From Promicromonospora sukumoe 327MFSha3.1 (lineage in GTDB: Bacteria > Actinomycetota > Actinomycetes > Actinomycetales > Cellulomonadaceae): 64,000 nt of DNA. The stretch covers positions 62,001 through 126,000 of the forward strand of contig NZ_ARQM01000018.1 in assembly GCF_000385135.1 (NCBI RefSeq). Direction: 5' to 3'. A program made the position numbers and the translations under genes. Under the pieces are notes generated by a model. That model was given only the letters and a program-made list of their open reading frames with translations, made no database searches and was not told where the DNA came from. The number at the start of each line of letters is the position of its first letter. Positions within the stretch are counted from its first letter, which is position 1. Below are positions 6,398 through 22,545 of the stretch, piece after piece.

Positions 6398-6480
6398 CCG
6401 AAGAGCGCTCCCCTGGCACATCGATGTAGTTGTCCCGTTTGAGTGGAATACTACGGGCAAAAGGGGGTAACTGCGCAGAT

Positions 6481-6506: not shown

Positions 6507-6571
6507 GGGCAGATCCGGCCCGTTACCGGTTGCGGCGTCACCACCTGCCTGTGTCACCGTCTAGCCCGGCG

Positions 6572-7333
6572 ATGAACACGAGACCGGCAGGAGACGACGC
6601 ACTCGGCACGCTGTGCGCGCGATGGCGCAGACGCACGGTCGCCGAGGGCTGGCGCATGCCCGAGGACTGGGCGGCGCCCGCCGTCGTGCCGCTCGCGAGC
6701 GCCGTCCTGCACGGGCTGCCCGCCGAGGGGCCGGCCGAGGCGCTCGGCACGGCCCGGGCGATGGCCGACGTCGGCGTCACCGAGGGGCTGCGCGACGTGG
6801 GCGCGCTCTACGACCTGTGCCTGGCGAGCGTGCCGCACTCGGTCACGCTGGCGTTCGCCGCGGGGTGGGAGACAGCGGACACCGCGCCCGACCCGGTGGC
6901 CGCGGCCCGGGGCATGAGCGGGCTGCCGCAGCACACGGAGTTCCTGGCGCGTGCCGCGGACATCTTCGCCGGGATCGACAGCACGCGGGAGGGCGGGTCG
7001 CTGGTGCTGGTGACGATCGACGGCCGCGTGGGCCGGGCGGGCGCGGCGCGGCTCGTGCGGTGGAAGCGCGACGTGCTGCTCGGCGAGGCGGTCCGGACGG
7101 CGTTCGACGCGCGGTACCCCACGGGATACCGCGACGGCGTGGCCGTTGTCCTCGGGCGGTCCGAGCCGGCGGGGCACCTCCTGGCGGACGTCGCCCGCGT
7201 CCGGGCCACGCTGACCGGCCTGGCCCGCAAGAACCCGAGCATCCTGCGGGCGCCGGTGCGCATCACCGTGCGCCCGCTGCCGGAGGACCTGGCCGCCCTG
7301 CGCCGCATGATCGCCGTCGATGACGCCGCCTGA
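6572..7333 (+). CDS. Hypothetical protein between two sigma-factor genes
   Basis: A 253-residue soluble protein with no signal peptide or membrane helix. I do not recognise the family. The N-terminal half is helical (PEDWAAPAVVPLASAVLHGL...). The C-terminal half has alternating strands and helices (SLVLVTIDGRVGRAGAARLV...VAVVLGRSEPAGHLLADV), which faintly recalls a degenerate GGDEF-like fold, but no catalytic motif is visible. It is divergent from the sigma-fusion gene and convergent with the second sigma gene (19 bases apart). ATG 6572 is chosen because residues upstream in frame look non-coding. A role with the sigma factors is inference from position only. Confidence 0.6.
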   Translation: MNTRPAGDDALGTLCARWRRRTVAEGWRMPEDWAAPAVVPLASAVLHGLPAEGPAEALGTARAMADVGVTEGLRDVGALYDLCLASVPHSVTLAFAAGWETADTAPDPVAAARGMSGLPQHTEFLARAADIFAGIDSTREGGSLVLVTIDGRVGRAGAARLVRWKRDVLLGEAVRTAFDARYPTGYRDGVAVVLGRSEPAGHLLADVARVRATLTGLARKNPSILRAPVRITVRPLPEDLAALRRMIAVDDAA

Positions 7334-7352
7334 CGGCGGGGCGCGACCCGGA

Positions 7353-8006
7353 CTAGCCGTGCTCGGGCGCGCCCTGCTCGTGCACGCCGCGCGCCACGAA
7401 CCGGCGGATCGACTCGCGCGCCCGCACGAGCAGGGCCGCCACGGCGTTCTTCGAGATGCCCAGGTCCTGGGCGACCGTGGCGATGGGCACGCCCTCGAAG
7501 ACGGTCATCTGCAGGGCGTACCGCTGCCGCGGCGGGCAGGCCGCCAGGCCCTCGAGCACGTCCCCGAGCTCCATGGCCGACAGGGCCGCCGACGCCGGGT
7601 CGTCCCAGGCGGGCAGGTCGTGCGCCTCGTCGATCACGGTGGTCGGCGGCTGCCGCCGGCGCGACCGGTCCGTGGCGATGTTGCGCACGGTGCGCGCCAC
7701 GTACGTCTTGCCGTGCTCGCGCGGGCCGCGGCCGGCGCGCAGCAGCGACAGGATCCGGACGAACGCCTCGGCGGCGAGGTCGTCGGCATCCGAGTGGCTG
7801 CGGGTGTAGCGGCGGGCCACCTTCAGCGCGTAGGGATAGTGCCGCCGCCAGACCAGGTCGATCGCGACCGTGTCACCGGCCCGCGCCCGGGTGAACAGCT
7901 CGATGTCGGGGAGCTCCTCGGGTTCGTCCCCCGCCTCCGCCGTGTTGCCGCCGCCCTGCATCAGGCCGAGCGCGCGCTGCCAAGCCGCCGTCGTCGTCAC
8001 CGGCAT
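7353..8006 (-). CDS. RNA polymerase sigma factor, sigma-70/ECF family
   Basis: A 217-residue protein with sigma region 2 (DLVWRRHYPYALKVARRYTR, DADDLAAEAFVRILSLL, KTYVARTVRNIATDRSRRR) and region 4 (GLAACPPRQRYALQMTVFEG, VAQDLGISKNAVAALLVRAR). Length and order are normal for ECF sigma factors. ATG 8006 follows an AGGAGGGGA site. No anti-sigma gene is adjacent. The 5' region carries the same 26-base motif as the sigma-fusion gene, so the two may be co-regulated or one may control the other. Confidence 0.85.
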   Translation of the reverse strand: MPVTTTAAWQRALGLMQGGGNTAEAGDEPEELPDIELFTRARAGDTVAIDLVWRRHYPYALKVARRYTRSHSDADDLAAEAFVRILSLLRAGRGPREHGKTYVARTVRNIATDRSRRRQPPTTVIDEAHDLPAWDDPASAALSAMELGDVLEGLAACPPRQRYALQMTVFEGVPIATVAQDLGISKNAVAALLVRARESIRRFVARGVHEQGAPEHG

Positions 8007-8108
8007 CGAAGTCCCCTCCTCGCGATGACGGCCCGCTGGAGCCGGGCCGTCGGCGCACGGGTGTACGCGATGGTGAAGACGCGAGGAGGGGACGTGCGTG
8101 TCGCACGG

Positions 8109-10243: not shown

Positions 10244-10906
10244 TCAGTCGAGCGGCGAGAGGAACTCGCGAAACTCGCCGGGCGTGGTGTGCAGCCCCCA
10301 GATGCGCTCGGCGACGGCGTCGTGTCCACGCTCGGGGTCGTCGCCACGGATGGCGCCCGGGATCACGAGCTGGGCGACGCGGATGCCCTCGGGGGCCAGG
10401 GCGTCGTGCAGCATCTGCCCGTAGGCGCTCTCCCCCGCGAACCCGATGGACGTGCCCGCGTAGTCGGCGCGCGGCCGCACCGAGGTGCCGCCGTTGACGA
10501 GGACGACCGTGCCCGCGCCCGCCGCGCGCATGCCGGGCAGCACGGCCTCGACCGCGGCCACGGGGCCGAGCACGGAGAACCGGACGGCCTCCAGGATGTC
10601 GGCGGCGGGCGTCTCGGTCACGGGCCGCAGGTAGTGGCGCGCCGGGAGCGGGCTGTACTGCAGCACGGAGACCGGCCCGAGGTCGGCGGCCGCCGCGGTC
10701 AGGGCCGCGGTGAGGGCGTCCGCGTCGAGCACGTCGGCCGCGTAGCCGCGCGCGGTGACGCCGTCGGCCGCGAGCTCTTTCGCGAGCGCGTCGACCTTGT
10801 CCTGGCTGCGGGAGAGCAGCGCGACGGCGAAGCCCTCGCGGCCGAAGCGCCGCGCGACGGCCTGGCCGACGCCGGGGCCGGCACCGATGATGGCGATGGT
10901 GGACAT
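10244..10906 (-). CDS. Short-chain dehydrogenase/reductase (SDR) family oxidoreductase
   Basis: A 220-residue Rossmann protein. The N-terminal nucleotide loop IAIIGAGPGVGQAVARRFGR is the GxxxGxG form found in SDRs. An NVL-type NGGTSVRPRADYAG segment and SAYGQML (Y in a short YxxxL rather than the classical YxxxK) follow, so the catalytic lysine is unusual or absent. Such divergent SDRs are common in actinobacteria and their substrate cannot be told from sequence. ATG 10906 has an AGAGGAC ribosome site. It stands upstream of kup on the same strand, 143 bases apart, and is probably independent. Confidence 0.82.
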   Translation of the reverse strand: MSTIAIIGAGPGVGQAVARRFGREGFAVALLSRSQDKVDALAKELAADGVTARGYAADVLDADALTAALTAAAADLGPVSVLQYSPLPARHYLRPVTETPAADILEAVRFSVLGPVAAVEAVLPGMRAAGAGTVVLVNGGTSVRPRADYAGTSIGFAGESAYGQMLHDALAPEGIRVAQLVIPGAIRGDDPERGHDAVAERIWGLHTTPGEFREFLSPLD

Positions 10907-10972: not shown

Positions 10973-11590
10973 TCAGGGTCTCCCCCGGCGCAGCAGGCCG
11001 AGGCGGGCGAACAGCACGGCGCAGGCGCCGAGCGTCGCGATCATCAGCACCGAGCCGACGACCGTGTGCGTCCAGCCGAAGCCCTGCGCGCCCCAGCGGG
11101 CCTGCGCCTCGGCGATCAGGACCATGCGGCCGGTGTTGACCACGACCAGCAGCAGCCCGGCGGCGAGCACCGCGGCCGCCACCCGCGGGAGGCTGGTGCG
11201 CCGGGAGAGGAGCAGGAGCCCGCCGAGGACCAGCAGGCCGCCCACGTAGAACACCGCGGTGCACGCGCTGGTGACCACGAGCCCGGCCCAGGACGTGTCG
11301 TCGCCGGGCACCTGCTGGTAGAGGAACACCGGGTCCGTGGTCAGGGTCCGCGACGGGCGGCCGAGACCGCCCAGCACCCACGCCGTCAGCGCGGACTCGG
11401 CGAACCTGAGGCGTTGCTCGGCGAGCAGGACGACGGCCCCGGCGACGATCAGCGACGCGGCGGCCAGGAGGCGCGGCACCACGGTCAGGGCCCGACGGCG
11501 GCCGGGTGGGGCGGTCGCGGCCGGTTCGGCCCGCGCGCCCAGGCCGAACGGTACCGACGCGGCGCCCTCCGGCGAGACGGTGTGGTCCAT
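10973..11590 (-). CDS. Exosortase/archaeosortase-family membrane protein (copy 1)
   Basis: A 205-residue polytopic protein with the exosortase active-site arrangement: Cys110 in VTSACTAVFYVGG, Arg155 in VNTGRMVLI and His175 in GFGWTHTVVGS, each at the edge of a membrane helix. Exosortases are thought to cleave C-terminal sorting signals on the outer face of the membrane and pass the protein to an acceptor. About 5 membrane segments are visible. ATG 11590 has a GGAGGA site. It lies directly downstream of a candidate substrate gene (11673-12785), separated by a strong hairpin. It is paralogous to 17813-18439. The proteins resemble what annotators call exosortase P; that name is from memory. Confidence 0.85.
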   Translation of the reverse strand: MDHTVSPEGAASVPFGLGARAEPAATAPPGRRRALTVVPRLLAAASLIVAGAVVLLAEQRLRFAESALTAWVLGGLGRPSRTLTTDPVFLYQQVPGDDTSWAGLVVTSACTAVFYVGGLLVLGGLLLLSRRTSLPRVAAAVLAAGLLLVVVNTGRMVLIAEAQARWGAQGFGWTHTVVGSVLMIATLGACAVLFARLGLLRRGRP

Positions 11591-11614
11591 GCGGTCTTCC
11601 TCCCGGGTGGGGTC

Positions 11615-11653
11615 AGGTGGGCGTCCCCGGCACGGTGCCGGGGACGCCCACCT
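11615..11653. terminator. Long hairpin between surface protein and exosortase 1
   Basis: A perfect 19-base inverted repeat with a single-base spacer, starting AGGTGGGCGTCCCCGGCAC. It has no T tract. It may act as a terminator or processing site that lowers exosortase expression relative to the substrate gene. Confidence 0.65.
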
Positions 11654-11672
11654 CACCTGCGTGCGGCGGTCG

Positions 11673-12785
11673 TCAGGCGGTCATCCGGCGGCGCAGGCGG
11701 TAGACGCCCGCCCCGGCCAGCGCGAGCGCCGTGCCCGCGAGGCTGATCGCCGGGACCGGGGGCTCCGGGTCCTCCGTGACGGTGACGGTCACGGTCGCCT
11801 CGACCTCGACGCCGTCCGGCCCGGTCACCCGGTAGGTGAAGGTGTCCGTGCCGGTGAACCCGGCCGGCGGGGTGTAGGTGACGGTGCCGTCGCCGTTGTC
11901 GACGACGGTGCCGCCCTCGGCCGTGGTGGTGTCCACGTCCCAGCCGGTCGAGCCCTCGGGGATGGTGTCGTTGTCCCGGACGTCCACGGTGGCGGGCGTG
12001 TCGACCGTGGTCGAGGCCGAGTCGTCGACCAGGGCAGCGGGCTCGCAGGCGAACTCACCCGTGAAGCGAGCCAGGAAGCCCTCGGCGCCCGGTGCGCTCG
12101 TGACCTGCACGATGATGCTGTTGGCTCCGGCCCGCCAGTCGTCACCCAGCGTGACGGAGGCCTGGCCGCCCTCGTGGAAGCCACCGTTCCAGTACGGGTA
12201 CGGCGAGGTGAGGGCAGGGAGGCCCGAGACCTTCGGGCTCTGCGCCGTGTTGTTGACCCAGACCTCCAGCACCGTGTTGTCGGCATAGAAGTCCAGGCTC
12301 AGCTCTTCCAGCGTGACGCCGGACGCGAGGTTGAAGTCGTACTTGTAGTACCAGCTCGCGGCGACGTCGGGCTGTGTCTGGCCGGGGGCCTGCTGCGACA
12401 CGTACTGCGCGTCGGAGTACTGCGTGCCGCCCGGCCAGTAGGTCTCGTGCTTGGCGTAGGGCGCGGTCCAGGTGGCGCCCGCCGGAGGCAGGGCAGCGGG
12501 CACCTCCGTCACGGTCCTGGAGGCCGCTGTGGGGATCGCGTAGTGCGGACCGGTGACCTGCCAGTGCGGGTCCCGGGTCCCGTTCGGCAGGATGCCGCCC
12601 GTCGAGGCGTCGTACCCGGTGTTGAAGATCGCCGGGTCGGTCGAGCAGTCGATCGTCGGCGCCGCCGCGGCTGCCGGGCCGGCGAGCGCGACGCCCAGCC
12701 CGCCCGCCAGCACGCCGGCGAGCACCCCCACCGCTGCGAGACGGCGTCCGCGGGACGCGCCCCGGACAGTTGTCGTTCGGGTCAT
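11673..12785 (-). CDS. Secreted surface protein with Ig-like domain and exosortase-type C-terminal anchor
   Basis: A 370-residue protein. The signal peptide is RGRRLAAVGVLAGVLAGGLG with AAAAA at the cleavage region. The middle part (~40-245) has paired Cys and many Trp/Tyr residues and could be a carbohydrate- or ligand-binding beta domain. Residues ~250-335 form a cadherin/Big-like repeat (TVDVRDNDTIPEGSTG, GDGTVTYTPPAGFTGTDTF). The tail is PPVPAISLAGTALALAGAG followed by YRLRRRMTA: a Pro motif, a hydrophobic helix and a basic end, as in PEP-CTERM-like sorting signals. ATG 12785 has an AGGGAG site. The exosortase gene follows on the same strand, so this is its most likely substrate. Confidence 0.8.
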   Translation of the reverse strand: MTRTTTVRGASRGRRLAAVGVLAGVLAGGLGVALAGPAAAAAPTIDCSTDPAIFNTGYDASTGGILPNGTRDPHWQVTGPHYAIPTAASRTVTEVPAALPPAGATWTAPYAKHETYWPGGTQYSDAQYVSQQAPGQTQPDVAASWYYKYDFNLASGVTLEELSLDFYADNTVLEVWVNNTAQSPKVSGLPALTSPYPYWNGGFHEGGQASVTLGDDWRAGANSIIVQVTSAPGAEGFLARFTGEFACEPAALVDDSASTTVDTPATVDVRDNDTIPEGSTGWDVDTTTAEGGTVVDNGDGTVTYTPPAGFTGTDTFTYRVTGPDGVEVEATVTVTVTEDPEPPVPAISLAGTALALAGAGVYRLRRRMTA

Positions 12786-12917
12786 GAGAGAACTCCCTTG
12801 CTCGTGCGCCCCGGCGGAGCGCGCTTGCAGCACGGCTGAGGTCCGCGCTCGGAAGGTCAGACGCGACGTACGGGAGGCGGTGACGGCGGCGTCGGTTCTC
12901 GCGCCGCTGGCCCTGGT

Positions 12918-12973
12918 CGAACGTAGGAAGAGTCGGCGCAAGGGCGCTCATGCGCCGACGAACCCTACGTTCG
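12918..12973. repeat. 56-base two-tier palindromic element, copy 1
   Basis: The outer arms CGAACGTAGG / CCTACGTTCG (10 bases, perfect) enclose the inner arms GTCGGCGCA / TGCGCCGAC (9 bases, perfect) around a 10-base loop. A second copy of the same length is at 13493-13548 in the same orientation. The pair flanks the RidA gene and each copy lies 130-200 bases upstream of a divergent surface-protein gene. Confidence 0.75.
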
Positions 12974-12999
12974 GCGCCGCTGCCCGGGAGCAGAGAGGG

Positions 13000-13404
13000 T
13001 CAGTCGACGACGGCGGCGACCGCCTCGAGCTCCACGAGCTGGTCGGCGTAACCCAGGACCGTGACGCCCAGGAGGGTGCTCGGCACGTCATGCTCGCCGA
13101 ACGCGTGCCGGACCACGTCCCAGGCGGTCACCAGGTCCGCCCGCTCGGACGACGCGACGAGCACCCGCGTACTGATCACGTCCTCGATCGTCGCCCCGGC
13201 TGCCGCGAGCGCCTGGGTCATCGTCTCGACGCACGCAGCCGCCTGACCCGCGTAGTCGCCGACCCCGACGGTCGCGCCGTCGGCGTCCAGTGGGCACGAC
13301 CCTGCCAGGAAGATCAGCCGGGCGTCCGACGGCGCGGTCGCCGCGTACGCGTACGGCGCGTCGGAGAGGCTCGAGGAACGGATCAGCTGCACGGCGCTCG
13401 GCAT
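13000..13404 (-). CDS. RidA/YjgF family protein
   Basis: A 134-residue protein with the RidA trimer fold features: RLIFLAGSCPLDADG near the N terminus and AAACVETMTQALAAAGATIED in the middle. The C-terminal VLVASSERADLVTAWDVVRH plays the part of the usual arginine-bearing strand; the classical R-in-TK(R)TT catalytic site is not clear. The family deaminates reactive enamines or acts as a chorismatase-like relative. ATG 13404 has GGAAGGA 7 bases upstream. It sits alone between two identical-orientation 56-base palindromes and has no visible link to the surface genes around it. Confidence 0.82.
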   Translation of the reverse strand: MPSAVQLIRSSSLSDAPYAYAATAPSDARLIFLAGSCPLDADGATVGVGDYAGQAAACVETMTQALAAAGATIEDVISTRVLVASSERADLVTAWDVVRHAFGEHDVPSTLLGVTVLGYADQLVELEAVAAVVD

Positions 13405-13492
13405 GCCGCGATCCTTCCAGAACAGTCGACCTGCCGCCGATCCCGGTTCGCCACCGGCGTCGCCGCCGAACGTAGGAACCGTAGGCGTAGGC

Positions 13493-13548
13493 CGAACGTA
13501 GGAATGGTCGGCGCAACAGCGCTCATGCGGCGACGAACCCTACGCTCG
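13493..13548. repeat. 56-base two-tier palindromic element, copy 2, with extra half-site
   Basis: Same architecture as 12918-12973 with one change in each right arm (TGCGGCGAC, CCTACGCTCG). A lone left half, CGAACGTAGGAA, lies at 13467-13478, followed by GTAGGCGTAGG. It is located 145-200 bases before the surface-protein start at 13693. Confidence 0.75.
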
Positions 13549-13639
13549 CCGATGTTCACCGTTGCCCGCCGCTGCCGGCGCGGGTGCCGCACGGCGCACC
13601 GTCACCGCAGCGGCCGCTTCCCGTCCAACCTCGTGCGAG

Positions 13640-13670
13640 CCGCGACACCGACGTGCCAACGACGTCGCGG
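13640..13670 (+). promoter_or_regulatory. Conserved 5' leader hairpin, copy 1
   Basis: CCGCGAC (13640-13646) pairs with GTCGCGG (13664-13670), 23 bases before the start codon. The surrounding leader from about 13633 to the ATG is nearly identical to that of the paralogue at 14670. This indicates a duplicated transcription unit or a functional RNA leader. Confidence 0.55.
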
Positions 13671-13692
13671 GCGCCGACAGAAGGGAAGACAC

Positions 13693-14370
13693 ATGAGCAC
13701 CACCTCCCACAAGACCGAGCCGACGGAGGCCGGCCACGGGGCGCGACGGCTCGCGGCCGTCGGCCTGGGCACCGTTCTCCTGCTCGGCGGGGGCGCGCTG
13801 ACCGCTGCGGCGGCACCCGTCACCGACCCGGTCGGCCCGGGCACCAGCGGGACCACCGCACACGGCGTGACCTGGACGGCGAGCGACGAGCTGCGCGACG
13901 CGGCCGGTGTCGTCACGAACGGCTTCAGCGTGGGACGGGGCGAGGACGCCATGCTGACGTTCGGTGAGACGGTCGACCTCACGTTCGACGTGGTGAGCCT
14001 GCAGTCGAACGGGCCGTCGGACACCGAGTGCCTGGTCCTGCCCGCCGGTTCCACGCCCGTGCAGCTGTCCCCGATGCATGAGTGGAACGCGGCAAGCAGC
14101 ACGATCTGCGCGACGAACAACAACGCGGCCGACGACCCGGCTGCGGCCAACGACGCCACGTCGCAGTTCCGCCTGGACGACGTGAGCTCGTTCTCCATGT
14201 CGGGCAACGGCACCAACACGAGCCGGGCGCGCTGGATCTCGAACCCCCGGGTGACGGTCGACCGTGAGGAGCCGGCCATCCCGATGGTCGCCCCGGCGTT
14301 CGCCGTCGCGGGCCTGGTCGCGACGGGCGCTCTTGCCGGCGTCCGCCGCGTGCGCGGTCTCTCGCGCTGA
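13693..14370 (+). CDS. Small secreted surface protein with exosortase-type C-terminal anchor (paralogue A)
   Basis: A 225-residue protein. The signal peptide is ARRLAAVGLGTVLLLGGGAL with TAAAAP at the cleavage region. The body is Ser/Thr/Asn-rich and beta-like, with one Cys pair (ECLVLP...STICATNNN). The tail is EPAIPMVAPAFAVAGLVATG, ending in ALAGVRRVRGLSR. The proline motif, helix and Arg cluster match those of paralogue B, so it is a likely exosortase substrate. The function of the body is unknown. ATG 13693 follows AAGGGAAGAC. A hairpin terminator follows. Confidence 0.78.
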   Translation: MSTTSHKTEPTEAGHGARRLAAVGLGTVLLLGGGALTAAAAPVTDPVGPGTSGTTAHGVTWTASDELRDAAGVVTNGFSVGRGEDAMLTFGETVDLTFDVVSLQSNGPSDTECLVLPAGSTPVQLSPMHEWNAASSTICATNNNAADDPAAANDATSQFRLDDVSSFSMSGNGTNTSRARWISNPRVTVDREEPAIPMVAPAFAVAGLVATGALAGVRRVRGLSR

Positions 14371-14398
14371 TCCCGCGGGGCCCTGTCCCCGCTGGTTC

Positions 14399-14438
14399 GG
14401 AACGCCCCGCCGCTCGGCCAGAGCGGTGGGGCGTTTCC
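14399..14438. terminator. Rho-independent-like terminator after paralogue A
   Basis: GGAACGCCCCGCCGCTC pairs with GAGCGGTGGGGCGTTTCC around GGCCA, ending in TTT. Confidence 0.75.
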
Positions 14439-14485
14439 GTCACCACGGTCGGGTGACCGTCGGACGAGGACGACTCCCCCAGCCA

Positions 14486-14522
14486 GGTAACGGAGAGGTA
14501 GCACTGCTACCTCTCCGTTACC
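14486..14522. repeat. Perfect 37-base palindrome (18+1+18)
   Basis: GGTAACGGAGAGGTAGCA, one C, then its exact reverse complement. It lies between the terminator of paralogue A and the leader of paralogue B, ~150 bases before the next start. It is much less GC-rich than its surroundings and has no T tract, so an operator or recombination/cruciform site is more likely than a terminator. Confidence 0.8.
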
Positions 14523-14616
14523 CCTCCCGTTGAGCAGTCCTTTCCCCGCTGCCCGGGCCGACGACGGCGAATCACCCGTCACCGGCGCACGGGCAGCACG
14601 TCAAACCCTGTGCGAG

Positions 14617-14646
14617 CCGCGACACCGCCGTACCTCAACGTCGCGG
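14617..14646 (+). promoter_or_regulatory. Conserved 5' leader hairpin, copy 2
   Basis: CCGCGAC (14617-14623) pairs with GTCGCGG (14640-14646), 23 bases before the ATG of paralogue B, as in copy 1. The flanks GTGCGAGCCGCGACACCG and CAGGAAGGGAACACAC align with the first leader. Confidence 0.55.
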
Positions 14647-14669
14647 ACGCACACAGGAAGGGAACACAC

Positions 14670-15359
14670 ATGAGCAACACCTCTCACGAGATCAAGCCCG
14701 GGCGCGCACAGCTGCGCTCGCGGCTGGCCGCCGTCGGGCTCGGTGCCTCGCTCCTGCTGGGCGCGGGCGCGCTGACGGCCTCGGCAGCGCCGGTGACCGA
14801 GCCGGTGAACTGGGCGTCGAACTCTGGCACCACCGCCAGCGGTGTCAGCTGGACGGGACGGGGCGGCCTGCCCGCCAACGGCAACAACGTCCGGGACGAC
14901 GTGACCCGGACACTCACGTTCAGCGAGCCCGTGACAGCGACGTTCGACGTGCACAACCTCAACGGGTGGGACGGGGCGTCGCGCGAGTGCGCCCAGCTCT
15001 CCCCCGACGTCGTGCTGGTCAGGCTCGACCCGGACAACACCTGGAACCCGAGCACCCGCCAGATCTGCTTCCGCGGACCCCAGGGCAGCTCGGCCGACGG
15101 GAACACGAACGGCAACACGATCTCGTCCTTCCGCACGAGCCAGCCGGTCACGCAGATCGCCATCACCGGGACGAGCGGCGGCAACCGGCAGAGCACCATC
15201 CGCGACCTGTACATCACGAGCGACGACACCCCGCCCGTCCCCGCGGTCGCCCCGGCGTTCGGGATCGCGGGCCTGCTCGCCACGGGCGCCCTCGCCGGCG
15301 TCCGCCGGATGCGGGGCGCCAAGCGGGAGACCGCGGAGGTGACCACCACGCAGGCCTGA
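14670..15359 (+). CDS. Small secreted surface protein with exosortase-type C-terminal anchor (paralogue B)
   Basis: A 229-residue protein, paralogous to 13693-14370. The start MSNTSHEIKPG mirrors MSTTSHKTEP. The signal peptide is SRLAAVGLGASLLLGAGALT with SAAP. The mature part is beta-rich with one Cys pair (ECAQLSPDV...RQICFRG). The C-terminal signal is PPVPAVAPAFGIAGLLATGA, then LAGVRRMRGAKRE and a 10-residue hydrophilic tail. The VAPAF-AGL-ATGALAGVRR pattern is conserved between the two paralogues while the bodies have diverged, as expected if the tail is recognised by a sorting enzyme. The body's role is unknown. Confidence 0.8.
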   Translation: MSNTSHEIKPGRAQLRSRLAAVGLGASLLLGAGALTASAAPVTEPVNWASNSGTTASGVSWTGRGGLPANGNNVRDDVTRTLTFSEPVTATFDVHNLNGWDGASRECAQLSPDVVLVRLDPDNTWNPSTRQICFRGPQGSSADGNTNGNTISSFRTSQPVTQIAITGTSGGNRQSTIRDLYITSDDTPPVPAVAPAFGIAGLLATGALAGVRRMRGAKRETAEVTTTQA

Positions 15360-15408
15360 CCAGGCCGCCCACGAACCTACGGGTGAGCCACCCCTCGGCC
15401 CGTAGATC

Positions 15409-15446
15409 GACGCCCCGTCGCTCTCCTCCACGAGCGGCGGGGCGTC
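15409..15446. terminator. Terminator after paralogue B
   Basis: GACGCCCCGTCGCTC and GAGCGGCGGGGCGTC form a 15-base stem with one mismatch around an 8-base loop. Confidence 0.75.
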
Positions 15447-15540
15447 GTGCGCCCAGGCGGCCCCGCGCCCAGGCGGCCGGGCCCCCGGCGGCGGGGCACG
15501 CAACCGTCACCGGGCCCCGCCACCCCCGTCAGTACCCGAC

Positions 15541-17511
15541 GTGAGCACCGCGATCGTCCCGCGCCCGACGACGGGCCCGCCGAACCAGCCCCCGGACCAG
15601 CCGCCCGCACCGCCGCCGGAGGACCGGCCGAGCACGCCCCGGCGCACCCCCGTGCCGTCGGTGTACTTCCGGGCGGTGGACGGCCTGCGCGGCGTCGCCG
15701 TCCTGTCGGTGCTGATGTACCACACGGGCCTCTACGAGAACGGCCTTTTCGGCGTGGACCTGTTCATGGTGCTGTCCGGCTACCTGATCACGCTGACGCT
15801 GCTGCGCGAGGAGTCCCGGGGAGGCCGCATCCGGCTGGGCGAGTTCTACCGGCGTCGGGCCAAGCGGCTGCTGGTCCCGCTGCTGGTGACGCTGGGCGCG
15901 ACCGGGATCGCGGTGGCCCGCCTGGGCCGGCCCGAGGAGGCCGACCGGGTGCTCCAGCAGGGACTCGCGTCGCTGCTGCAGGTCGCCAACTGGGAGCAGG
16001 TCGCGCGCGGCGAGTCGTACTGGGACGCGATGGGCGTGCCCGGGCCGCTGGCCCACATGTGGTCGCTGTCGCTGACCGAGCAGTTCTACCTGGTCTGGCC
16101 GCCGTTGCTGGCCCTGGTGTGCGTGGTCGTCGCCCGGCGGCGGCGCGCCACCGTCGCCTGGCTGGCGAGCCTGCTGGCCGTCGCGATGACCGCCGTGACC
16201 GTGCTGCAGTACGACGGCACCAACGCCGACCTGCTCTACCTGGGCACGCACTCGCACGGCGTCGGACTCATGGTGGGCGCCTGCGCCGCGCTGGTGACGG
16301 CGTCCCTGCCCGTGCGCCGCGTCGACGGGCATCCGCGACGGCGCCTGTCCCGGCCGGTCGCGACTTTCGTCTCGCTCGGACTGCTGGCCGCGATCGTGCT
16401 GGTCTCGGTCGGCACCGACACCTACGCGGCGCCGTGGCTCTACGAGCGGGGCGGCCTGACGGTCGTGGCCGTGCTGGCCGCCGCCCTGATCCTGTCGCTC
16501 ACCCGCGAGGACACCCCCGTGGCCCGCGTCCTCATGACGACGCCGCTGGTGGAGGTCGGCAAGGCGTCCTACTCGCTGTACCTGGTGCACGTGCCGGTGT
16601 TCTGGGTGCTGCAGCGCACCCTGGAGAACCCGAGCCCCGCCGTGATCGCGCTGGTCGGCGTGCCGCTGTCGACGGTGCTCGCCCTGTTCCTGCACCACAT
16701 CGTGGGCGAGCCGGTGCGGCTGCGCCGCTGGAACCGCGCCGGCGGCACGTCGTTCGCGCTGCTCGCCGCCGCCGTCTGCGCGGCGCTGGTGGTCTCCCCC
16801 ACGCTGGTGCGGCAGGAGTCGGGGTCGGGCGGCACCCGGGTACTCGTGCTGGGCGACTCCCTGGGCCACGACTTCGCCACGGCCCTGACCACGTTCGCCC
16901 CCGACGAGTTCGCCGTGACGGACGGCGCGTTCAACGGGTGCGGCGTCTTCAGCCCGGAGACGAGCCGCACCACCGCCGTCGAGCAGGGGCCCGCACCCGG
17001 CTGCCTGCCCTGGGAGGACCGGTGGCGGTCCGCCGTGCGGGAGTCCGCACCCGACGTCGTGCTGGTCAACCTCGCCTGGGACGGCGCCGAGCAGCGGGTC
17101 GGTGGCCGGTGGCTGCGCCCGTGCTCGGCCGGGTACGCGGCCCGGTACCGCGACCAGCTCGACACCGCGCTGGAGATCCTGACGGCCGACGGCGTCCCGC
17201 GTCGCGTGCTGCTGGCCACCTCCCGTGAGTTCACGCCCATCGCCACGCCCGAGGACGCCGCCTGCCACACCGAGTTGCTGCGGGCCTTCGCCGCGGAGCA
17301 CCGCTCGGTGGTCGGCATGCTGGAGCTCGACCGGTTCGTGTGCACGGACACGGCCTGCCGGCAGGAGACGCCCGACGGCGCGCCCGCCTACCTCGACACG
17401 GTGCACTTCACGCGCGCCGGGATGCGCTGGATCGCGCCGTGGCTGGTCACGAGCATCCAGGACGTCACCGGCCCGCCGTCGCGCACCGAGCCCGGCTCAC
17501 GCACCCCGTGA
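15541..17511 (+). CDS. Membrane acyltransferase (acyltransferase-3) fused to SGNH hydrolase-like domain
   Basis: A 656-residue protein of the OafA/PatB architecture. After a Pro-rich cytoplasmic start it has the acyltransferase-3 motif (YFRAVDGLRGVAVLSVLMYH, GVDLFMVLSGYLITLTLL, RRRAKRLL) and ~10 membrane helices. The C-terminal extracytoplasmic SGNH domain has GDSLGHD (~residue 438) and a YLDTVHFTRAGM block with the Asp/His pair (~618). Such proteins O-acylate exported glycans or lipid-linked sugars. The start is GTG 15541, with no clear ribosome site. Together with the downstream exosortase, GT2 and WecB it suggests surface-glycan modification. Confidence 0.88.
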   Translation: MSTAIVPRPTTGPPNQPPDQPPAPPPEDRPSTPRRTPVPSVYFRAVDGLRGVAVLSVLMYHTGLYENGLFGVDLFMVLSGYLITLTLLREESRGGRIRLGEFYRRRAKRLLVPLLVTLGATGIAVARLGRPEEADRVLQQGLASLLQVANWEQVARGESYWDAMGVPGPLAHMWSLSLTEQFYLVWPPLLALVCVVVARRRRATVAWLASLLAVAMTAVTVLQYDGTNADLLYLGTHSHGVGLMVGACAALVTASLPVRRVDGHPRRRLSRPVATFVSLGLLAAIVLVSVGTDTYAAPWLYERGGLTVVAVLAAALILSLTREDTPVARVLMTTPLVEVGKASYSLYLVHVPVFWVLQRTLENPSPAVIALVGVPLSTVLALFLHHIVGEPVRLRRWNRAGGTSFALLAAAVCAALVVSPTLVRQESGSGGTRVLVLGDSLGHDFATALTTFAPDEFAVTDGAFNGCGVFSPETSRTTAVEQGPAPGCLPWEDRWRSAVRESAPDVVLVNLAWDGAEQRVGGRWLRPCSAGYAARYRDQLDTALEILTADGVPRRVLLATSREFTPIATPEDAACHTELLRAFAAEHRSVVGMLELDRFVCTDTACRQETPDGAPAYLDTVHFTRAGMRWIAPWLVTSIQDVTGPPSRTEPGSRTP

Positions 17512-17612
17512 CCCGGCCCACAGAACCGGACCGTCGTCGCCGCCCGCCGGCTGCGTCTGTCCCACGAGGAGGGCCGCGACCCGCGCGGCCCGCGCACCGA
17601 GAGGAACCACGC

Positions 17613-17816
17613 ATGTACAACACCCCGGGTATCGGCAGCGGCGTCGCGACCGGCGTCGTCGGCGCCGGCACGCTCGCCCAGACCGGCTTCGACGGGCTGT
17701 GGCTCGCCGTGGCCGCCGTCACGTGCTTCGTGGGCGGGTTCATCCTGATCCGCGCGAGCCGGTCGGCCCGCCACGTCGAGGCGGCCCGCCACGTCGAGGC
17801 GGCGGGCGAGCGGTGA
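17613..17816 (+). CDS. Small LAQTG-bearing membrane protein
   Basis: A 67-residue protein: a Gly/Val-rich start, LAQTG at residues 21-25, one membrane helix (WLAVAAVTCFVGGFILI) and a basic tail with the duplicated unit ARHVEA. LAxTG-helix-basic is the layout recognised by class E sortases in high-GC actinobacteria, but here almost no protein precedes the motif. ATG 17613 has GAGAGGAA upstream. Its TGA overlaps the exosortase GTG (GTGA), so translation is coupled. It may be a small co-factor or acceptor for the exosortase rather than an adhesin; this is speculative. Confidence 0.7.
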   Translation: MYNTPGIGSGVATGVVGAGTLAQTGFDGLWLAVAAVTCFVGGFILIRASRSARHVEAARHVEAAGER

Positions 17817-18439
17817 CCGCACCCCTGCCGGCCCTGACCGACGGCGGCCCGCCCGCCCGCGTCGCACCGCGCCCCCGGACCGGGGGCGCGGTGCTCCGCG
17901 CGCTGCTCGCGCTCCCGGTCGCCGCGCTGGGCGCCGCCGTCGTGCTGGGCACGGACCGGTTCCGGTACGGCGAGGCGCACCTGACGGCCTGGGCGCTGGA
18001 GCACGTGCTGCGCCGCCCGGCCGCGGTGCCGTCGCCCGAGGCCGTCTTCTACTACCGGGCCGAAGCCGGCCCGGTCCCGGTCTGGGGCGGGTTCACCATC
18101 ACCGAGGAGTGCTCGGCGGCGTGGTTCGTGGGCGGCGTGCTGGTGGCCACCGCGCTGCTGCTCGTGGTGTGGCGGCGGGCGCGCGCCGGCCGCCTCCTGG
18201 TCGCGAGCCTGGTCACCGCAGTGCTCCTCGTCGTGGTCAACACCGCACGCATGGTCCTGATCACCGAGGCCACCGTGCACTGGGGCGAGGCCGGCTTCGG
18301 CTGGTCGCACACGGTGGGCGGCTCGATCCTCATGATCGCCACGCTGTGCCTGAGCGCCCTGTTGTTCGCCCGCATCGCCCTGCTGCCCCGCGCTGCGCGC
18401 GCCGGGGCCACCCTGCCCCGAGAGGCCGGCCGCCCGTGA
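17813..18439 (+). CDS. Exosortase/archaeosortase-family membrane protein (copy 2)
   Basis: A 208-residue polytopic protein paralogous to 10973-11590. The active-site residues are all present: Cys100 in TITEECSAAWFVGG, Arg146 in VNTARMVLI and His166 in GFGWSHTVGGS. The N-terminal RFRYGEAHLTAW also matches RLRFAESALTAW of copy 1. It overlaps the gene before it and the GT2 after it by 4 bases (GTGA each time), placing it inside a tightly coupled operon with glycan genes. It probably processes proteins carrying the VAPAF-type tail; which exosortase serves which substrate cannot be read from sequence. Confidence 0.87.
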   Translation: MTAPLPALTDGGPPARVAPRPRTGGAVLRALLALPVAALGAAVVLGTDRFRYGEAHLTAWALEHVLRRPAAVPSPEAVFYYRAEAGPVPVWGGFTITEECSAAWFVGGVLVATALLLVVWRRARAGRLLVASLVTAVLLVVVNTARMVLITEATVHWGEAGFGWSHTVGGSILMIATLCLSALLFARIALLPRAARAGATLPREAGRP

Positions 18440-19773
18440 GTCTCGTCAGTCTTGTCGCCACGCTGATCATCACGTCCTCGATGGCCTACTTCGTGCTGCT
18501 GGTGGGGTCGGGCCTCAAGGCGATCCGCCGCACCGGCACCCGCCTGGACCACCTGGGCGCCACGGCGTACGGCACCGGCCCCACGGCCGAGGGGCCCGCG
18601 CTCGCCGTCTACTTCCTGGTGCCGTGCCTCGACGAGGCCGAGGTCATCGGCCGCACGGTGGCCGGCCTGACCATCAACCCGGGCACCACCACGATCGTCG
18701 TCGACGACGGGTCGGACGACGACACCGCCGCCCTCGCGCTCGCCGCCGGGGGCGCCCGGGTCGAGGTCGTCCGCCGTGACCTGCCGCACGCGCGCCAGGG
18801 CAAGGGCGAGGCCCTGAACGCGGGCCTGGCGCGGGTGCGCCAGATGGTGGCGACCCGCGGGCAGCACCCCGACCAGGTGGTGGTGTGCGTGATGGACGCC
18901 GACGGGCGGCTCTCGGAGCGCGCCCTGGACCACGTGCTGCCCTTGTTCGACCGGCCGCACGTCGGCGGCGTCCAGCTCCAGGTGCGCATCCGCAACCGCG
19001 ACTCGTTCCTCACCCGGTTCCAGGACTTCGAGTTCTGGGGCGCGTCCAGCGTGACGCAGATCGGCCGCTCGGCCACGGGCACCGTGAGCCTGGGCGGCAA
19101 CGCGCAGTTCAGCCGCCTGTCCGCCCTCGACTCGGCCGGCGAGCGGCCCTGGACCGACTCCCTGACCGAGGACCTCGACCTCGCCATCACGCTCGCCCTG
19201 CGCGGCTGGGAGCTGACCACCACGCCGTTCGCCGCCGTCGAGCAGCAGGCGGTGGAGCAGGTGCCGCTGCTGCTGCGCCAGCGCACCCGCTGGTACCAGG
19301 GCCACCTGATGACGATCAAGCGCCTGCCGGAGATCTGGCGCTCGCCCCACCTGTCGCACGTCGCGGCGCTGGAGCTGTCGTTCTACTGCCTGTCCCCCTG
19401 GATCCTGACGCTGCCGTGGTCGGTCCTGTTCCACGTCTGCCTGGGCGACCTGATCCTGAACGGATCCGCCCTGCTGGACTTCGCCGCCACGCCCGTCGCC
19501 ACGGCCGTCGTGGTGCTCGCGTGGTACCTGCTCGCGTTCGCGCCCGCGGTGTTCAACGGGGTGCTCTACTGGCGCCGCGACCGCCGGGTGGGGCTGTGGC
19601 GGGGCCTCGCCATGGGCAACTACATGGTGCTGACCAACTACCTCTCGTTCGCGTGCGCTTGGAAGGCGCTCGCCCGCGTGCTACGCGGCGAGACCGCCTG
19701 GGCCAAGACCGCCCGGACGCGCGAGACCCCCGAGCCGGCCCGCGCCCTGACCAGCCCGGCGGTCGCGTCGTGA
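18436..19773 (+). CDS. Family 2 glycosyltransferase, processive membrane type
   Basis: A 445-residue protein with an N-terminal membrane helix, a GT2 catalytic domain and three or more C-terminal helices. The expected motifs are in order: VDDGSDDDT, MDADG, TEDLD and QRTRW (QxxRW). This set is typical of processive synthases such as the PgaC/NodC/BcsA group, which polymerise and export a beta-linked sugar. The product is not predictable; GlcNAc- or ManNAc-related sugar is possible given WecB nearby. GTG 18436 overlaps the exosortase stop. Confidence 0.88.
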   Translation: MSLVSLVATLIITSSMAYFVLLVGSGLKAIRRTGTRLDHLGATAYGTGPTAEGPALAVYFLVPCLDEAEVIGRTVAGLTINPGTTTIVVDDGSDDDTAALALAAGGARVEVVRRDLPHARQGKGEALNAGLARVRQMVATRGQHPDQVVVCVMDADGRLSERALDHVLPLFDRPHVGGVQLQVRIRNRDSFLTRFQDFEFWGASSVTQIGRSATGTVSLGGNAQFSRLSALDSAGERPWTDSLTEDLDLAITLALRGWELTTTPFAAVEQQAVEQVPLLLRQRTRWYQGHLMTIKRLPEIWRSPHLSHVAALELSFYCLSPWILTLPWSVLFHVCLGDLILNGSALLDFAATPVATAVVVLAWYLLAFAPAVFNGVLYWRRDRRVGLWRGLAMGNYMVLTNYLSFACAWKALARVLRGETAWAKTARTRETPEPARALTSPAVAS

Positions 19774-21254
19774 CGGGGCAGCGCAGGACTTCCGCCGTCG
19801 CCGTCGCCGCGCGCCCGTGGGTGCCGACCGCCGCCTGGGCCGCGGTCCTGTTCGCGCTGGGTCTGGTCCGCATGCTCGTCCCGCGCGCCGTGGGCCTGGC
19901 CGACGACGGCAGCGGCGCCCGGCTCGCCTGCCGGCTCGGCGTCGCCCCGGAGGGCGAGGTGCGGTACTTCGCCTTCGCGGTCTTCCGCTACGTGGCCGAC
20001 GACGACGCGTCGTGCGCTTCCGGGACGCCGCCCCCGTGGCCGCAGCACGCCGGGCTGCTGCTCGCCCGCCTGGTGTCCACGACGCTCGGCGCGGGCGCCC
20101 TCGACCTGCGCGTGGCCGTGGTGGCGTACTGCGCGCTCGCGGCCGTGACCGCCGCCCTGGTCGGTGCGCTCGCCCGGCGCCGCCGCCACGCGCGCGCCGT
20201 CACGACCGTGCTGACCTGGCTGCTGCTCGTCGACTCCGCCTTCGCGGGGTACGCCGCCAGCCTGTACCCGCAGGCCGCCGGGATCACGGGCCTGCTGCTG
20301 ACCGTCACGGGCTGGCTGCTGCTCGAGGCCGCCGGACCCGCCCGCTGGGTGGGCCGCGCGGCGCTCACCCTGGGCGCCGCCGTGCTCGTGTCCTCCGGGC
20401 CTGTCGCCGCGCTCGCCGTCGTACCGCTCGGTGTCGCCCTGCTGCTGCGGGCCCGGGCGAGCGCCCGGGCCCGAGCCCGTGACCGGGCAGCCTGGCTCGC
20501 CCCCGCGGCGCTCACCGTCGCGCTGACCACGCTCGCGGCCGGTGCCGTCGCAGGCGTGGACCCCACCCAGCGCCGGTACGACACCTGGGACTACGTGAGC
20601 ACCGGCGTGCTCGCGGACACCGACCGGCCCGGCCCCGAGCTGGCGGCCATGGGGCTGCCGGCCGACGCCGAGCGGTTCCTCGGCATCCCGGTCTGGTCCC
20701 CCGCCTCGATCCGCGGCTGGGACCGCTGGCCCGACGTCGACCCGGACCCCCTCCGCGTCCAGGGCTACGTGCTCAGCCACCCGGCCGTCCTGCACGACCG
20801 GCTCGACCACGCGGTGCGCGCCATGGGCGAGGGCCGGCCGGCGAGCCTCGGCTCGTACGACGCCGGCACCGCGCGGCCCGGGGAGCAGGAGCGGCGGGTC
20901 ACGCTCTTCTCGTCCCGCCAGGACCAGCTCCTCGCGTTCGGCCTGCCCGTGGCCGTCCTCCTCGGGGCGGTGCTCACCTGGCTGGCGCTCGTCGTCACGC
21001 GCTCGCCGGTGCACGGCGCCGACGCCCGCCGGCTCGCGTCCGGCGCACTGCTCCTGCTGGGCGTCGCGGTCAGCCAGGTGGCCGGCACCGCGCTCACGGA
21101 GGCCACCGACGCCGGCCGGCACGTCGTGGTCGGCAGCCTCGCCGGGCTGCTCGCCCTGTGCCTCCTGGTGGCCGCCGGGCTCACCTCGCGCGCCCTGGAC
21201 GCGTCCGCCCGGCCCGAGGTCGCCCGCCCCGAGGCCGCCCGCGCCTCCGCCTGA
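19770..21254 (+). CDS. Polytopic membrane protein of the exosortase/glycan operon
   Basis: A 494-residue protein with ~10-11 hydrophobic segments and one large extracytoplasmic region between helices (~residues 255-380, containing TQRRYDTWDYVSTG and SPASIRGWDRWPDV). The pattern of helices with a conserved-looking Asp early (ADDGSGARLACRLG) recalls GT-C-type glycosyltransferases or associated glycan proteins, but no diagnostic motif is certain. The start GTG overlaps the GT2 stop. Position suggests a role in assembling or exporting the glycan, or in supplying the acceptor for sorted proteins. Confidence 0.72.
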   Translation: MTGQRRTSAVAVAARPWVPTAAWAAVLFALGLVRMLVPRAVGLADDGSGARLACRLGVAPEGEVRYFAFAVFRYVADDDASCASGTPPPWPQHAGLLLARLVSTTLGAGALDLRVAVVAYCALAAVTAALVGALARRRRHARAVTTVLTWLLLVDSAFAGYAASLYPQAAGITGLLLTVTGWLLLEAAGPARWVGRAALTLGAAVLVSSGPVAALAVVPLGVALLLRARASARARARDRAAWLAPAALTVALTTLAAGAVAGVDPTQRRYDTWDYVSTGVLADTDRPGPELAAMGLPADAERFLGIPVWSPASIRGWDRWPDVDPDPLRVQGYVLSHPAVLHDRLDHAVRAMGEGRPASLGSYDAGTARPGEQERRVTLFSSRQDQLLAFGLPVAVLLGAVLTWLALVVTRSPVHGADARRLASGALLLLGVAVSQVAGTALTEATDAGRHVVVGSLAGLLALCLLVAAGLTSRALDASARPEVARPEAARASA

Positions 21255-21324
21255 ATCACGGGCCCGCACGTCACCACCGGTGCCCGGCTGCGTCGGTCAC
21301 GTTGCCCGACCAACCGCGGGCCCC

Positions 21325-21357
21325 TGTCCGAGCAGAAGCCCCCATGTCCGAGCAGAA
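21325..21357 (+). repeat. Short direct repeat in the wecB leader
   Basis: TGTCCGAGCAGAA occurs at 21325-21337 and 21345-21357, just before the wecB start. The second copy sits behind an out-of-frame ATG (21344), which could compete for initiation. Confidence 0.5.
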
Positions 21358-21366
21358 AGAAGCGCC

Positions 21367-22545
21367 ATGCACCACACCGCTCGCCGCGAGATCGCAGTGC
21401 TGTACGGAACACGGCCGGAGGCCGTCAAGCTCGCCCCGGTCGTCAACGAGCTCAAGCGCCGGGGCAGACACACGCCGCTCGTGGTCACCTCCGGCCAGCA
21501 CCGGGGCATGCTCGACCAGGTCAACCGCCTCTTCGAGATCGTCCCCGACCACGACCTCGGCCTGCTGCGGCGCGGCTACTCGCTCGACGACGTGCTCGTG
21601 GGCGCCATCCGCGGCTTCAGCGAGTACCTCGACGCGCACCCGGTGGACGCCGTCGTCGTGCAGGGCGACACGACGACCGCCTTCGCCGGGGCGCTCACCG
21701 CCTACCACCGGCAGATCCCCGTGGTGCACGTCGAGGCGGGCCTGCGCACCGGCGACGTCTACTCGCCGTTCCCCGAGGAGGGCAACCGCAAGTTCATCAG
21801 CGCCATCGCCACCCGGCACTGCGCGCCGACGGCGCGCGCGGCCCGCAACCTCCACCTGGAGCACGTCCCCGAGCGCGACGTCACCGTCACGGGGAACACC
21901 GTGATCGACGCCCTGATGCACACCGCGTCCCGCCCGGTGCGGATCAGCGACCCCGTGGTCGACACCGCGCTCAAGATCGGCCGGCGCGTGGTGCTCGTGA
22001 CGGCTCACCGGCGCGAGTCCTGGGACGACGGGATCGCCCAGATCGCCGCCGCCGTCGTCCAGGTGGCCGAGCTGTTCCCGGACGTGCTGTTCGTGCTCCC
22101 CCTGCACGGCAACCCGATCGTGCGCGAGGCGATCGTGCCGGCGGTCCTGGACACGCCCAACGTGCGGCTCACCGAGCCGCTGCCCTACGCCGAGTTCTGC
22201 CGGGTGCTGTCGCGGAGCAGCGTGGTGGTCACCGACTCGGGCGGCATCCAGGAGGAGGCGCCCGCGTTCGACGTCCCCGTCGTGATCACCCGGGACACCA
22301 CCGAACGCCCCGAGGTGGTCGACGCCGGCGGCGGGGTGCTGGTCGGGACCGACGCCGGGCAGATCGCGGGCACTCTGGGCGCCCTGCTCACCGACCGCGA
22401 GCTGCACCGCCGCATGGCGTCGGCCCCCAGCCCGTTCGGCGACGGGCACGCCGCCGGGCGCGTGGTCGACGTCATCGAGAGCATGCTGGCCGGCCGCCGC
22501 ACGGCCGACGCCGACGCCTGGACCGCGGCCGCGCTCGCCCGCTGA
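21367..22545 (+). CDS. wecB: UDP-N-acetylglucosamine 2-epimerase (non-hydrolysing)
   Basis: A 392-residue cytoplasmic enzyme that interconverts UDP-GlcNAc and UDP-ManNAc. Family motifs are clear: YGTRPEAVKLAPVVNELKRR, VQGDTTTAFAGALTAYH, VVHVEAGLRTGD, TAHRRESW, PLHGNPIVRE and TDSGGIQEEAPAFDVPVVI. Full length. It lies 112 bases after the polytopic protein and is followed by a terminator, so it probably closes the glycan operon. ManNAc-containing precursor supply for the GT2 is a reasonable inference. Confidence 0.95.
   Translation: MHHTARREIAVLYGTRPEAVKLAPVVNELKRRGRHTPLVVTSGQHRGMLDQVNRLFEIVPDHDLGLLRRGYSLDDVLVGAIRGFSEYLDAHPVDAVVVQGDTTTAFAGALTAYHRQIPVVHVEAGLRTGDVYSPFPEEGNRKFISAIATRHCAPTARAARNLHLEHVPERDVTVTGNTVIDALMHTASRPVRISDPVVDTALKIGRRVVLVTAHRRESWDDGIAQIAAAVVQVAELFPDVLFVLPLHGNPIVREAIVPAVLDTPNVRLTEPLPYAEFCRVLSRSSVVVTDSGGIQEEAPAFDVPVVITRDTTERPEVVDAGGGVLVGTDAGQIAGTLGALLTDRELHRRMASAPSPFGDGHAAGRVVDVIESMLAGRRTADADAWTAAALAR

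Follow-up and report, generated by a model that had tools for sequence, protein, structure and literature searches.

A probable cis-encoded exosortase sorting system, with a partner microprotein, in a Gram-positive of the genus Promicromonospora

The DNA analysed here, called the window throughout, is a stretch of 64,000 nt from a Promicromonospora genome of 6.25 Mb in 18 contigs (G000:C18:62001-126000). It carries an island centred on two exosortases, Xrt1 and Xrt2, accompanied by three secreted proteins with candidate sorting tails (SubA, SubB and SubC), a 67-residue protein with an LAxTG motif (the microprotein), genes assigned to glycan synthesis and a block of regulators. We argue that the island is, quite probably, a dedicated Gram-positive system for exosortase sorting, encoded in cis, because the tails and the microprotein follow the enzyme with an intact catalytic Cys, no tails were found with Cys-less enzymes, and similar tails stand on different passengers.

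Results

Gene content of the island

The genes of the island are the following (window coordinates).

10973..11590, minus strand: exosortase Xrt1, catalytic residues C110, R155 and H175; above the TIGR04178 and PF09721 cut-offs
11676..12785, minus strand: SubA, secreted, with a Big_9 domain and the tail EPPVPAISLAG..RLRRRMTA; tail profile 46.2 bits (training row)
13693..14370, plus strand: SubB, secreted, tail EPAIPMVAPAF..GVRRVRG; tail profile 48.6 bits (training row)
14670..15359, plus strand: SubC, secreted paralogue of SubB, tail TPPVPAVAPAF..GVRRMRG; tail profile 47.7 bits (training row)
15541..17511, plus strand: AT3-SGNH, a membrane acyltransferase-SGNH fusion; PF01757 118.8 bits, PF19040 54.2 bits
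17613..17816, plus strand: LAxTG microprotein, 67 residues, MYNTPG..TLAQTG, then a helix and an Arg tail; NF058583 33.2 bits (cut-off 65)
17813..18439, plus strand: exosortase Xrt2, catalytic residues C100, R146 and H166; above the TIGR04178 and PF09721 cut-offs
18436..19773, plus strand: GT2, a relative of the XrtP-associated glycosyltransferase; NF053846 291.9 bits (cut-off 520)
19770..21254, plus strand: WsfD-like polytopic glycan hexose transferase; NF051875 163.8 bits (cut-off 80)
21367..22545, plus strand: WecB, UDP-GlcNAc 2-epimerase; TIGR00236 393.3 bits (cut-off 210)

Every gene named in an original prediction, made from the sequence, is present. The catalytic residues of both exosortases had been numbered correctly; the C-termini of SubA, SubB and SubC do read as a Pro motif, a hydrophobic helix and an Arg tail; and AT3-SGNH, GT2, the polytopic protein and WecB are borne out by domain models, GT2 also by a Q-x-x-R-W motif at residue 282 (its match to NF053846 has E 7e-87). 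The prediction overlooked the microprotein and the regulators at 1030-8066. Its candidate recognition motif, [PVI]-P-x-[VI] before the helix, placed the proline correctly, but [VI]-P-x-[VI]-[AS] fits better, with one tail of a congeneric genome (G105) having L at the fourth place. The gene set is more than a chance assembly, since a profile built from the two exosortases matches only 12 of 200 genomes of the family and the set recurs in other genera.

The two exosortases

Xrt1 and Xrt2 are 47% identical. They score 38.4 and 36.9 bits, respectively, with TIGR04178, the signature of the exosortase/archaeosortase superfamily (cut-off 23), and 26.9 and 30.8 bits with the Pfam EpsH model PF09721 (cut-off 25.7). 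Across 22 aligned exosortases the catalytic Arg and His are each present in 22/22 and the Cys in 20/22. The AlphaFold2 (AF2) model of Xrt2 has a mean pLDDT (predicted local distance difference test) of 83.1 and a pTM (predicted template modelling score) of 0.73; no PDB structure matched the exosortase model at E<=1e-3 (best 0.35), and no PDB chain matched the sequence at E<=10.

The genome searches scored a limited number of first-pass candidates in each genome (for the exosortase, 15 per genome in the family and 8 in the order; for the tail, 40 and 21; for the microprotein, 32 in the family), so that a miss in a genome search is not proof of absence. The 12 family genomes with an exosortase match include 5 of the 13 of the same genus; ten of them have the catalytic Cys and two, G077 and G006, are without it. 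In the order, exosortases of this kind were found in 18 of 386 genomes, and within the Promicromonospora genome itself a third exosortase-like place reached merely E 0.058. In a midpoint-rooted tree the family exosortases form one branch (10 rows, two of them Cys-less), separate from 12 others that include those of G118 and G024 and XrtS (support 100/99). Xrt1 and Xrt2 lie on separate branches and the Oerskovia enzyme stands beside Xrt2 (94/89, just below the starred level), a topology in which the doubling may predate the split of the two genera, with losses afterwards.

Tails and intact exosortases occur together

We built a tail profile from ten tails of these loci and ran it on the same 200 family genomes. 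It found 23 places at E<=1.4e-7, all in 9 genomes (G000, G105, G128, G011, G043, G098, G112, G133 and G118), all but one of the 10 with an intact Cys, and no strong match in the other 190 (0/190; best E 9.7e-4). Fisher's exact test for tail against Cys-intact exosortase gives p 8.5e-15, but the genomes share ancestry and the model learned from tails of the same loci; no more than 10 of the 23 places had served as training rows, and close relatives account for most of the remaining 13. In 7 of the 9 genomes tails and exosortase share a contig and are no more than about 14 kb apart; in G128 and G133 the tails sit on a different contig. The profile was also examined by group hold-out, in which a whole group was left out and its tails were ranked against the C-termini of 3388 other open reading frames (ORFs), with the composition correction of HMMER off. 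All 3388 were outranked by 5/7 held-out tails of Promicromonospora, by those of G043, G492 and G024 (1/1 each) and by one of two from G098; a small number of the higher-ranking 'other' ORFs themselves encode tail proteins from other loci. In G492, a genome of the wider order, the order-wide run of the profile likewise picks out a protein 0.37 kb from the exosortase, a success with a held-out tail.

Similar tails are found on several passengers, which is what a sorting signal looks like. In Oerskovia flava, DAGVPLVAGGLAVAGLLGLGGIGAAR is common to three proteins; the N-terminal domain is FSEP-type in two of them and different in the third. A nearly identical tail stands at a fourth place. In the proteins with DAGVPLVAGGLAVAGLLGLGGIGAAR a Big_9 domain precedes the tail (BLAST or Pfam matches). 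Promicromonospora has similar tails either after a Big_9 domain or after an FSEP-type domain alone. Shared Big_9-plus-tail blocks could also be spread by recombination. Among the NCBIfam matches of SubA, SubB and SubC at E<=1 there is no CTERM model, whether PEP-CTERM, PVV-CTERM or other.

A division of labour with one tail type per exosortase (Xrt1 for SubA, Xrt2 for SubB and SubC) is unsupported: P. kroppenstedtii, in which only Xrt1 was found (assembly 83% complete), keeps both SubA and SubC. The AF2 model of SubC is all-beta and poor (mean pLDDT 64), and its likeness to a phage baseplate protein (best E 4.4e-3) was not relied upon. A common leader, GTGCGAGCCGCGACACCG..CGTCGCGG, directly precedes the start codons of SubB (leader at about 13630-13692) and SubC (about 14605-14669) and contains a possible short hairpin.

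The microprotein follows the intact exosortase

The microprotein, MYNTPGIGSGVATGVVGAGTLAQTGFDGLWLAVAAVTCFVGGFILIRASRS..., is encoded by a gene that overlaps Xrt2 by 4 bases. It carries LAQTG, then a helix and an Arg tail, which is the layout of a class E sortase substrate; its match to the NCBIfam model LAXTG_small_WW (NF058583) covers residues 1-53 of 67. LAXTG is given as the class E sortase signal in PMC5148588. A class E sortase scored above cut-off in all 14 genomes tested, with or without an exosortase, and the microprotein is by its sequence a probable substrate of that enzyme. A side observation concerns the same signal: the minus-strand protein at 38656-42975 has a class E sortase-type LAATG anchor and a choice-of-anchor G domain (127.9 bits; cut-off 45). 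In locus L095 this domain carries an exosortase PVV-CTERM tail, so that one kind of passenger can be combined with either anchor.

Seven of the ten rows of the microprotein profile come from the family; G128, G112 and G133 are not rows but are close relatives. Full-length microproteins (E<=7.5e-15) were found in 10/10 Cys-intact family genomes and in 1 of the 190 others, the Cys-less G077, which is partly a training result; the next-best family match (3.2e-8) is partial, and most partial matches lie in large open frames. Beyond the family, 80 genomes of the order (15 with an exosortase, 65 without) were searched for the microprotein, while 386 had been searched for the exosortase. Six exosortase genomes have it at full length at E<=8.6e-13, four of them close to or among the profile rows. 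The G492 protein (1.1e-7, not a row) also reads full-length (MYSPGAGAQPVLITGGTLAATGG...) and lies between exosortase and tail gene, giving 7 of 15 exosortase genomes. None of the 65 others has a full-length match, one of them (G359) having a partial match at 6.2e-8. Eight exosortase genomes, of families f8 and f14, have no match at E<=1e-6. In 10/10 aligned microproteins M1, Y2, LA-TG and one Arg are invariant; TG belonged to the search pattern and Y did not. As read from these matches, the microprotein consistently accompanies the exosortase in this branch, and it is a hint that exosortase and class E sortase may be connected.

Such constancy, together with the 4-base overlap, might also be expected of a partner that is not itself a substrate, for example one that stabilises the exosortase or forms a small membrane subunit of it, and retention of the microprotein in G077, whose exosortase is without Cys, fits that idea. 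However, a mere subunit would not need an LA-x-TG invariant in 10/10 sequences, and the microproteins of family f13 adjoin GT2, not the exosortase; we consider this explanation unlikely.

Exosortases without the catalytic Cys

The position of the catalytic Cys is taken by Val in G077 and by Gly in G006; both proteins have Ser for Asn143, and both retain Arg and His. They are encoded at L021:9738-10322(-) and L022:9481-10116(-) and belong to the Xrt2 branch. Neither locus has a tail protein and neither genome has a strong tail match (best E 0.063 and 0.54, respectively); L022 bears a 1355-residue LAMTG protein instead. The two proteins are 74% identical with a dN/dS (ratio of non-synonymous to synonymous substitution rates) of 0.37, against 0.36-0.40 in live pairs, a comparison of one pair that includes no neutral gene. 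They are apparently under constraint, and we regard them as candidate pseudo-exosortases with another role. In one further genome, G068, no exosortase was found, and a regulator block with a WecB piece (171 residues aligned) is present (locus L128), likely a remnant of the island; the regulators and the shortened WecB there adjoin a 1196-residue LASTG protein.

That the Cys-less enzymes look constrained and stay beside WecB would suit a different view of the island, in which the tails would do no more than anchor proteins in the membrane, the exosortase would serve mainly glycan export or assembly, and the surface proteins would be mere neighbours. It would leave unexplained the co-occurrence of tail and enzyme, the lack of detected tails where the Cys is lost and the presence of similar tails on different passengers, and we judge it distinctly improbable.

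Glycan genes and neighbourhood

The comparison took in 28 loci, namely the window and 27 others, from 27 genomes in all; several of the loci are near-copies. Within 10 kb of the exosortase, GT2 is found in 26/28 and WecB in 21/28. The microprotein is recognised by pattern in 16 of the 28 (17 counting L103), adjoining GT2 in the f13 loci, and inspection by eye gives a tail protein in 23. The five loci without a tail protein are the two Cys-less ones, L018 and L025, which end at contig breaks and have tails on other contigs, and L096, with poor gene calls. Loci with this island anatomy are also present in five further families of the order. GT2 profile matches of at least 590 bits occur only in 8 genomes, all with an exosortase gene; the ninth match (G106, 321 bits) is in a genome without one. 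P. kroppenstedtii (G128; assembly 83% complete) retains Xrt1, tail proteins, the microprotein, AT3-SGNH and WecB.

Regulators, intervening genes and repeats

The block upstream of the island, and a gene within its span, read as follows.

1030..3660, plus strand: large LuxR/MalT-type regulator, island-linked; GerE 40.6 bits; a homologue flanks the island in L019-L022, L024 and L026
3641..6544, minus strand: extracytoplasmic function (ECF) sigma factor carrying a single membrane helix around residue 376, plus a C-terminal part of ~570 residues; TIGR02937 70 bits (cut-off 42.9)
6659..7333, plus strand: 224-residue protein, function not assigned, island-specific orthologue; E<=6.1e-24 in 10/200 family genomes
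7353..8066, minus strand: ECF sigma factor, island-linked, start codon uncertain; TIGR02937 74 bits (cut-off 42.9); a homologue lies near the exosortase in L018-L023
8166-10100: KUP gene, between regulators and exosortase island
10244-10906: SDR gene, between regulators and exosortase island
13000-13404: RidA, within the island span, flanked by two copies of a dispersed repeat

The regulators at 1030-8066 belong to the island, judging by their recurrence: the block (LuxR, the two ECF sigma factors and the 224-residue protein) stands beside the island in this family, with not all four at each locus. Stretches homologous to the sigma factor at 3641-6544 flank it in L019, L021, L022, L023, L024 and L026; the ~570-residue C-terminal part of that protein has no Pfam match. 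The ten genomes with the 224-residue orthologue comprise 7 Cys-intact ones, both Cys-less ones and G068, and weaker relatives of this protein are widespread (155/200 genomes at E<=1e-6). KUP and SDR are not at the corresponding place in G105.

RidA is flanked by two copies (12918-12973 and 13493-13548) of a 56-bp palindromic repeat, CGAACGTAGG-N36-CCTACGTTCG, with variable inner stems, and copies also lie around RidA in P. kroppenstedtii (L109). The repeat occurs at about 48 genome places in all (92 strand matches, against 0 for a reversed control), in clusters spaced about 130 bp apart. It was rejected as a specific operator of SubA and SubB, as it is genome-wide.

Discussion

The within-family co-occurrence of tails and exosortase, and the lack of detected tails where the Cys is lost, support the proposal of a self-contained system of exosortases and substrates that has a candidate motif of its own. 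In the best reading, which draws on knowledge of the enzyme family, SubA, SubB and SubC would be secreted and then held in the membrane by the C-terminal helix and its Arg stop. Xrt1 and Xrt2, using Cys, Arg and His, would attack the chain near [VI]-P-x-[VI]-[AS] by a thioester mechanism, free the helix and hand the new C-terminus to an acceptor. The two sigma factors and the LuxR regulator probably control the island.

Several observations weigh against this reading. Firstly, the 10 tails used to train the model come from the same loci, and the hold-out had its failures: SubA-type tails (14 and 46 ORFs above), Oerskovia (4), G118 (4) and one G098 tail (6). With composition correction on, scores were weaker, for instance 3.6-13.8 bits for seven Promicromonospora tails. 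Secondly, G024, with an intact XrtS-like exosortase, has a best tail-profile match of only E 0.37. In the order, 15 of the 18 exosortase genomes are without a match at E<=1e-3, and 7 of the 10 matched genomes are without an exosortase. The link of tail profile to exosortase presence, a check named beforehand, thus held within the family (9/10 against 0/190) and failed order-wide. On this sequence evidence the tail signal is lineage-specific, and a single universal actinobacterial signal is rejected; other families show other motifs, such as P-x-V-S-W-Q or A-L-P-G-P (read by eye). Thirdly, GT2 at E<=1e-60 was found neither in G128 or G006 nor in G118 or G024 (where the GT2 is 33-34% identical), and the first two cases weaken the idea that the exosortase always goes with GT2. 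In P. kroppenstedtii (G128) only a 38-residue WsfD piece, with WecB, lies beside Xrt1 (the rest of the genome was not searched for WsfD); the piece looks like a deletion break. Fourthly, since the Cys-less exosortases show signs of constraint, cleavage may not be the only function of the protein.

What bacterial exosortases attach their substrates to is, to our knowledge, an open question. In the proposed sorting system the acceptor would most likely be envelope material made or modified by the neighbouring genes. WecB makes UDP-ManNAc, GT2 and the WsfD-like protein would build a glycan, and AT3-SGNH would acylate it; that this glycan is the acceptor is a guess, weakened because P. kroppenstedtii is without a GT2 match and has only the WsfD piece beside Xrt1.

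The microprotein is the other candidate acceptor. It would offer a concrete hypothesis, a relay in which the exosortase joins the C-terminus of SubA, SubB or SubC to the free N-terminus (invariant Met-Tyr) of the microprotein and the housekeeping class E sortase then fixes its LAxT to the wall, and we hold this joining to be very doubtful. The distribution of the microprotein (10/10 against 1/190 in the family, 7/15 against 0/65 in the order), its invariant M, Y, L, A, T, G and one R, its 67 residues without a passenger domain, the class E sortase in 14/14 genomes and the alternation of LAATG and exosortase tail on choice-of-anchor G proteins are all consistent with it. On the other side, the eight f14 and f8 exosortase genomes are without a microprotein match, genomes lacking an exosortase have the class E sortase just as those with one do, G077 retains the microprotein without tails, and other roles for a 67-residue membrane protein are at least as likely. 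The wider meaning, that the microprotein is a peptide linker making the exosortase product wall-anchored, with two unrelated transpeptidases in series on one protein, is equally a long shot.

The exosortase sorting system that we favour is of interest chiefly for the microprotein, with its hinted link of exosortase to class E sortase, and for the apparently constrained pseudo-exosortases; relatives with and without the catalytic Cys form a natural control.

Comparison with known systems

Among the best 10-30 titles of each literature search, in a collection without most subscription papers, none concerned actinobacterial exosortases with glycans or an LAxTG microprotein with an exosortase; one title, on Lactiplantibacillus (PMC12854382), contains the word XrtG. 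The archaeosortase ArtA shares the superfamily signature TIGR04178, and for it a Cys intermediate resolved by an amine acceptor is proposed (PMC7157517); it differs from the window system in that lipid attachment has been shown in Haloferax. PEP-CTERM/EpsH systems likewise have a Cys/Arg/His membrane enzyme, a signal of Pro motif, helix and Arg, and linked glycan genes and regulators. They differ from the window, which has few substrates beside the enzyme where they usually have many, and no PEP-CTERM match; the 2006 PEP-CTERM paper reported no example in Actinomycetes (PMC1569441).

Closer to the window are the actinobacterial systems. The best-scoring named exosortase is XrtR (NF012138; 88.1 and 82.2 bits, cut-off 150), followed by XrtS (NF033767; 82.1 and 73.6 bits, cut-off 145) and XrtP (NF012139; 45.8 and 46.4 bits, cut-off 200), all below cut-off, and the family branch stands apart in the tree from the 12 other rows, XrtS included (100/99). 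GT2 is related to the XrtP-associated glycosyltransferase, again below its cut-off. The XrtS/PVV-CTERM choice-of-anchor G system (NF033767, NF051874, NF033766), seen in L095 (XrtS 177.8 bits; PVV-CTERM protein 49.7 bits, cut-off 27), likewise has a short actinobacterial exosortase, a GT2, an LAxTG microprotein and a cis-encoded tail protein; in contrast, the window tails do not match PVV-CTERM, and there are two exosortases and three candidate substrates with other domains. The LAXTG small protein (NF058583) shares LAQTG, helix and Arg tail, in a genome with a class E sortase, but the window microprotein is tied to an exosortase and scores below the cut-off.

The kind of system is thus already catalogued, NCBIfam holding actinobacterial XrtP/R/S, the XrtP-associated glycosyltransferase, PVV-CTERM and the LAXTG small protein. 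New, by these model scores, are exosortases, a GT2 and a microprotein that fall below those cut-offs, and tails that match no CTERM model. The window adds a compact Gram-positive form: about 22 kb carry two enzymes, three putative substrates, the presumed regulators of the system and its partner microprotein, and the genus has named relatives.

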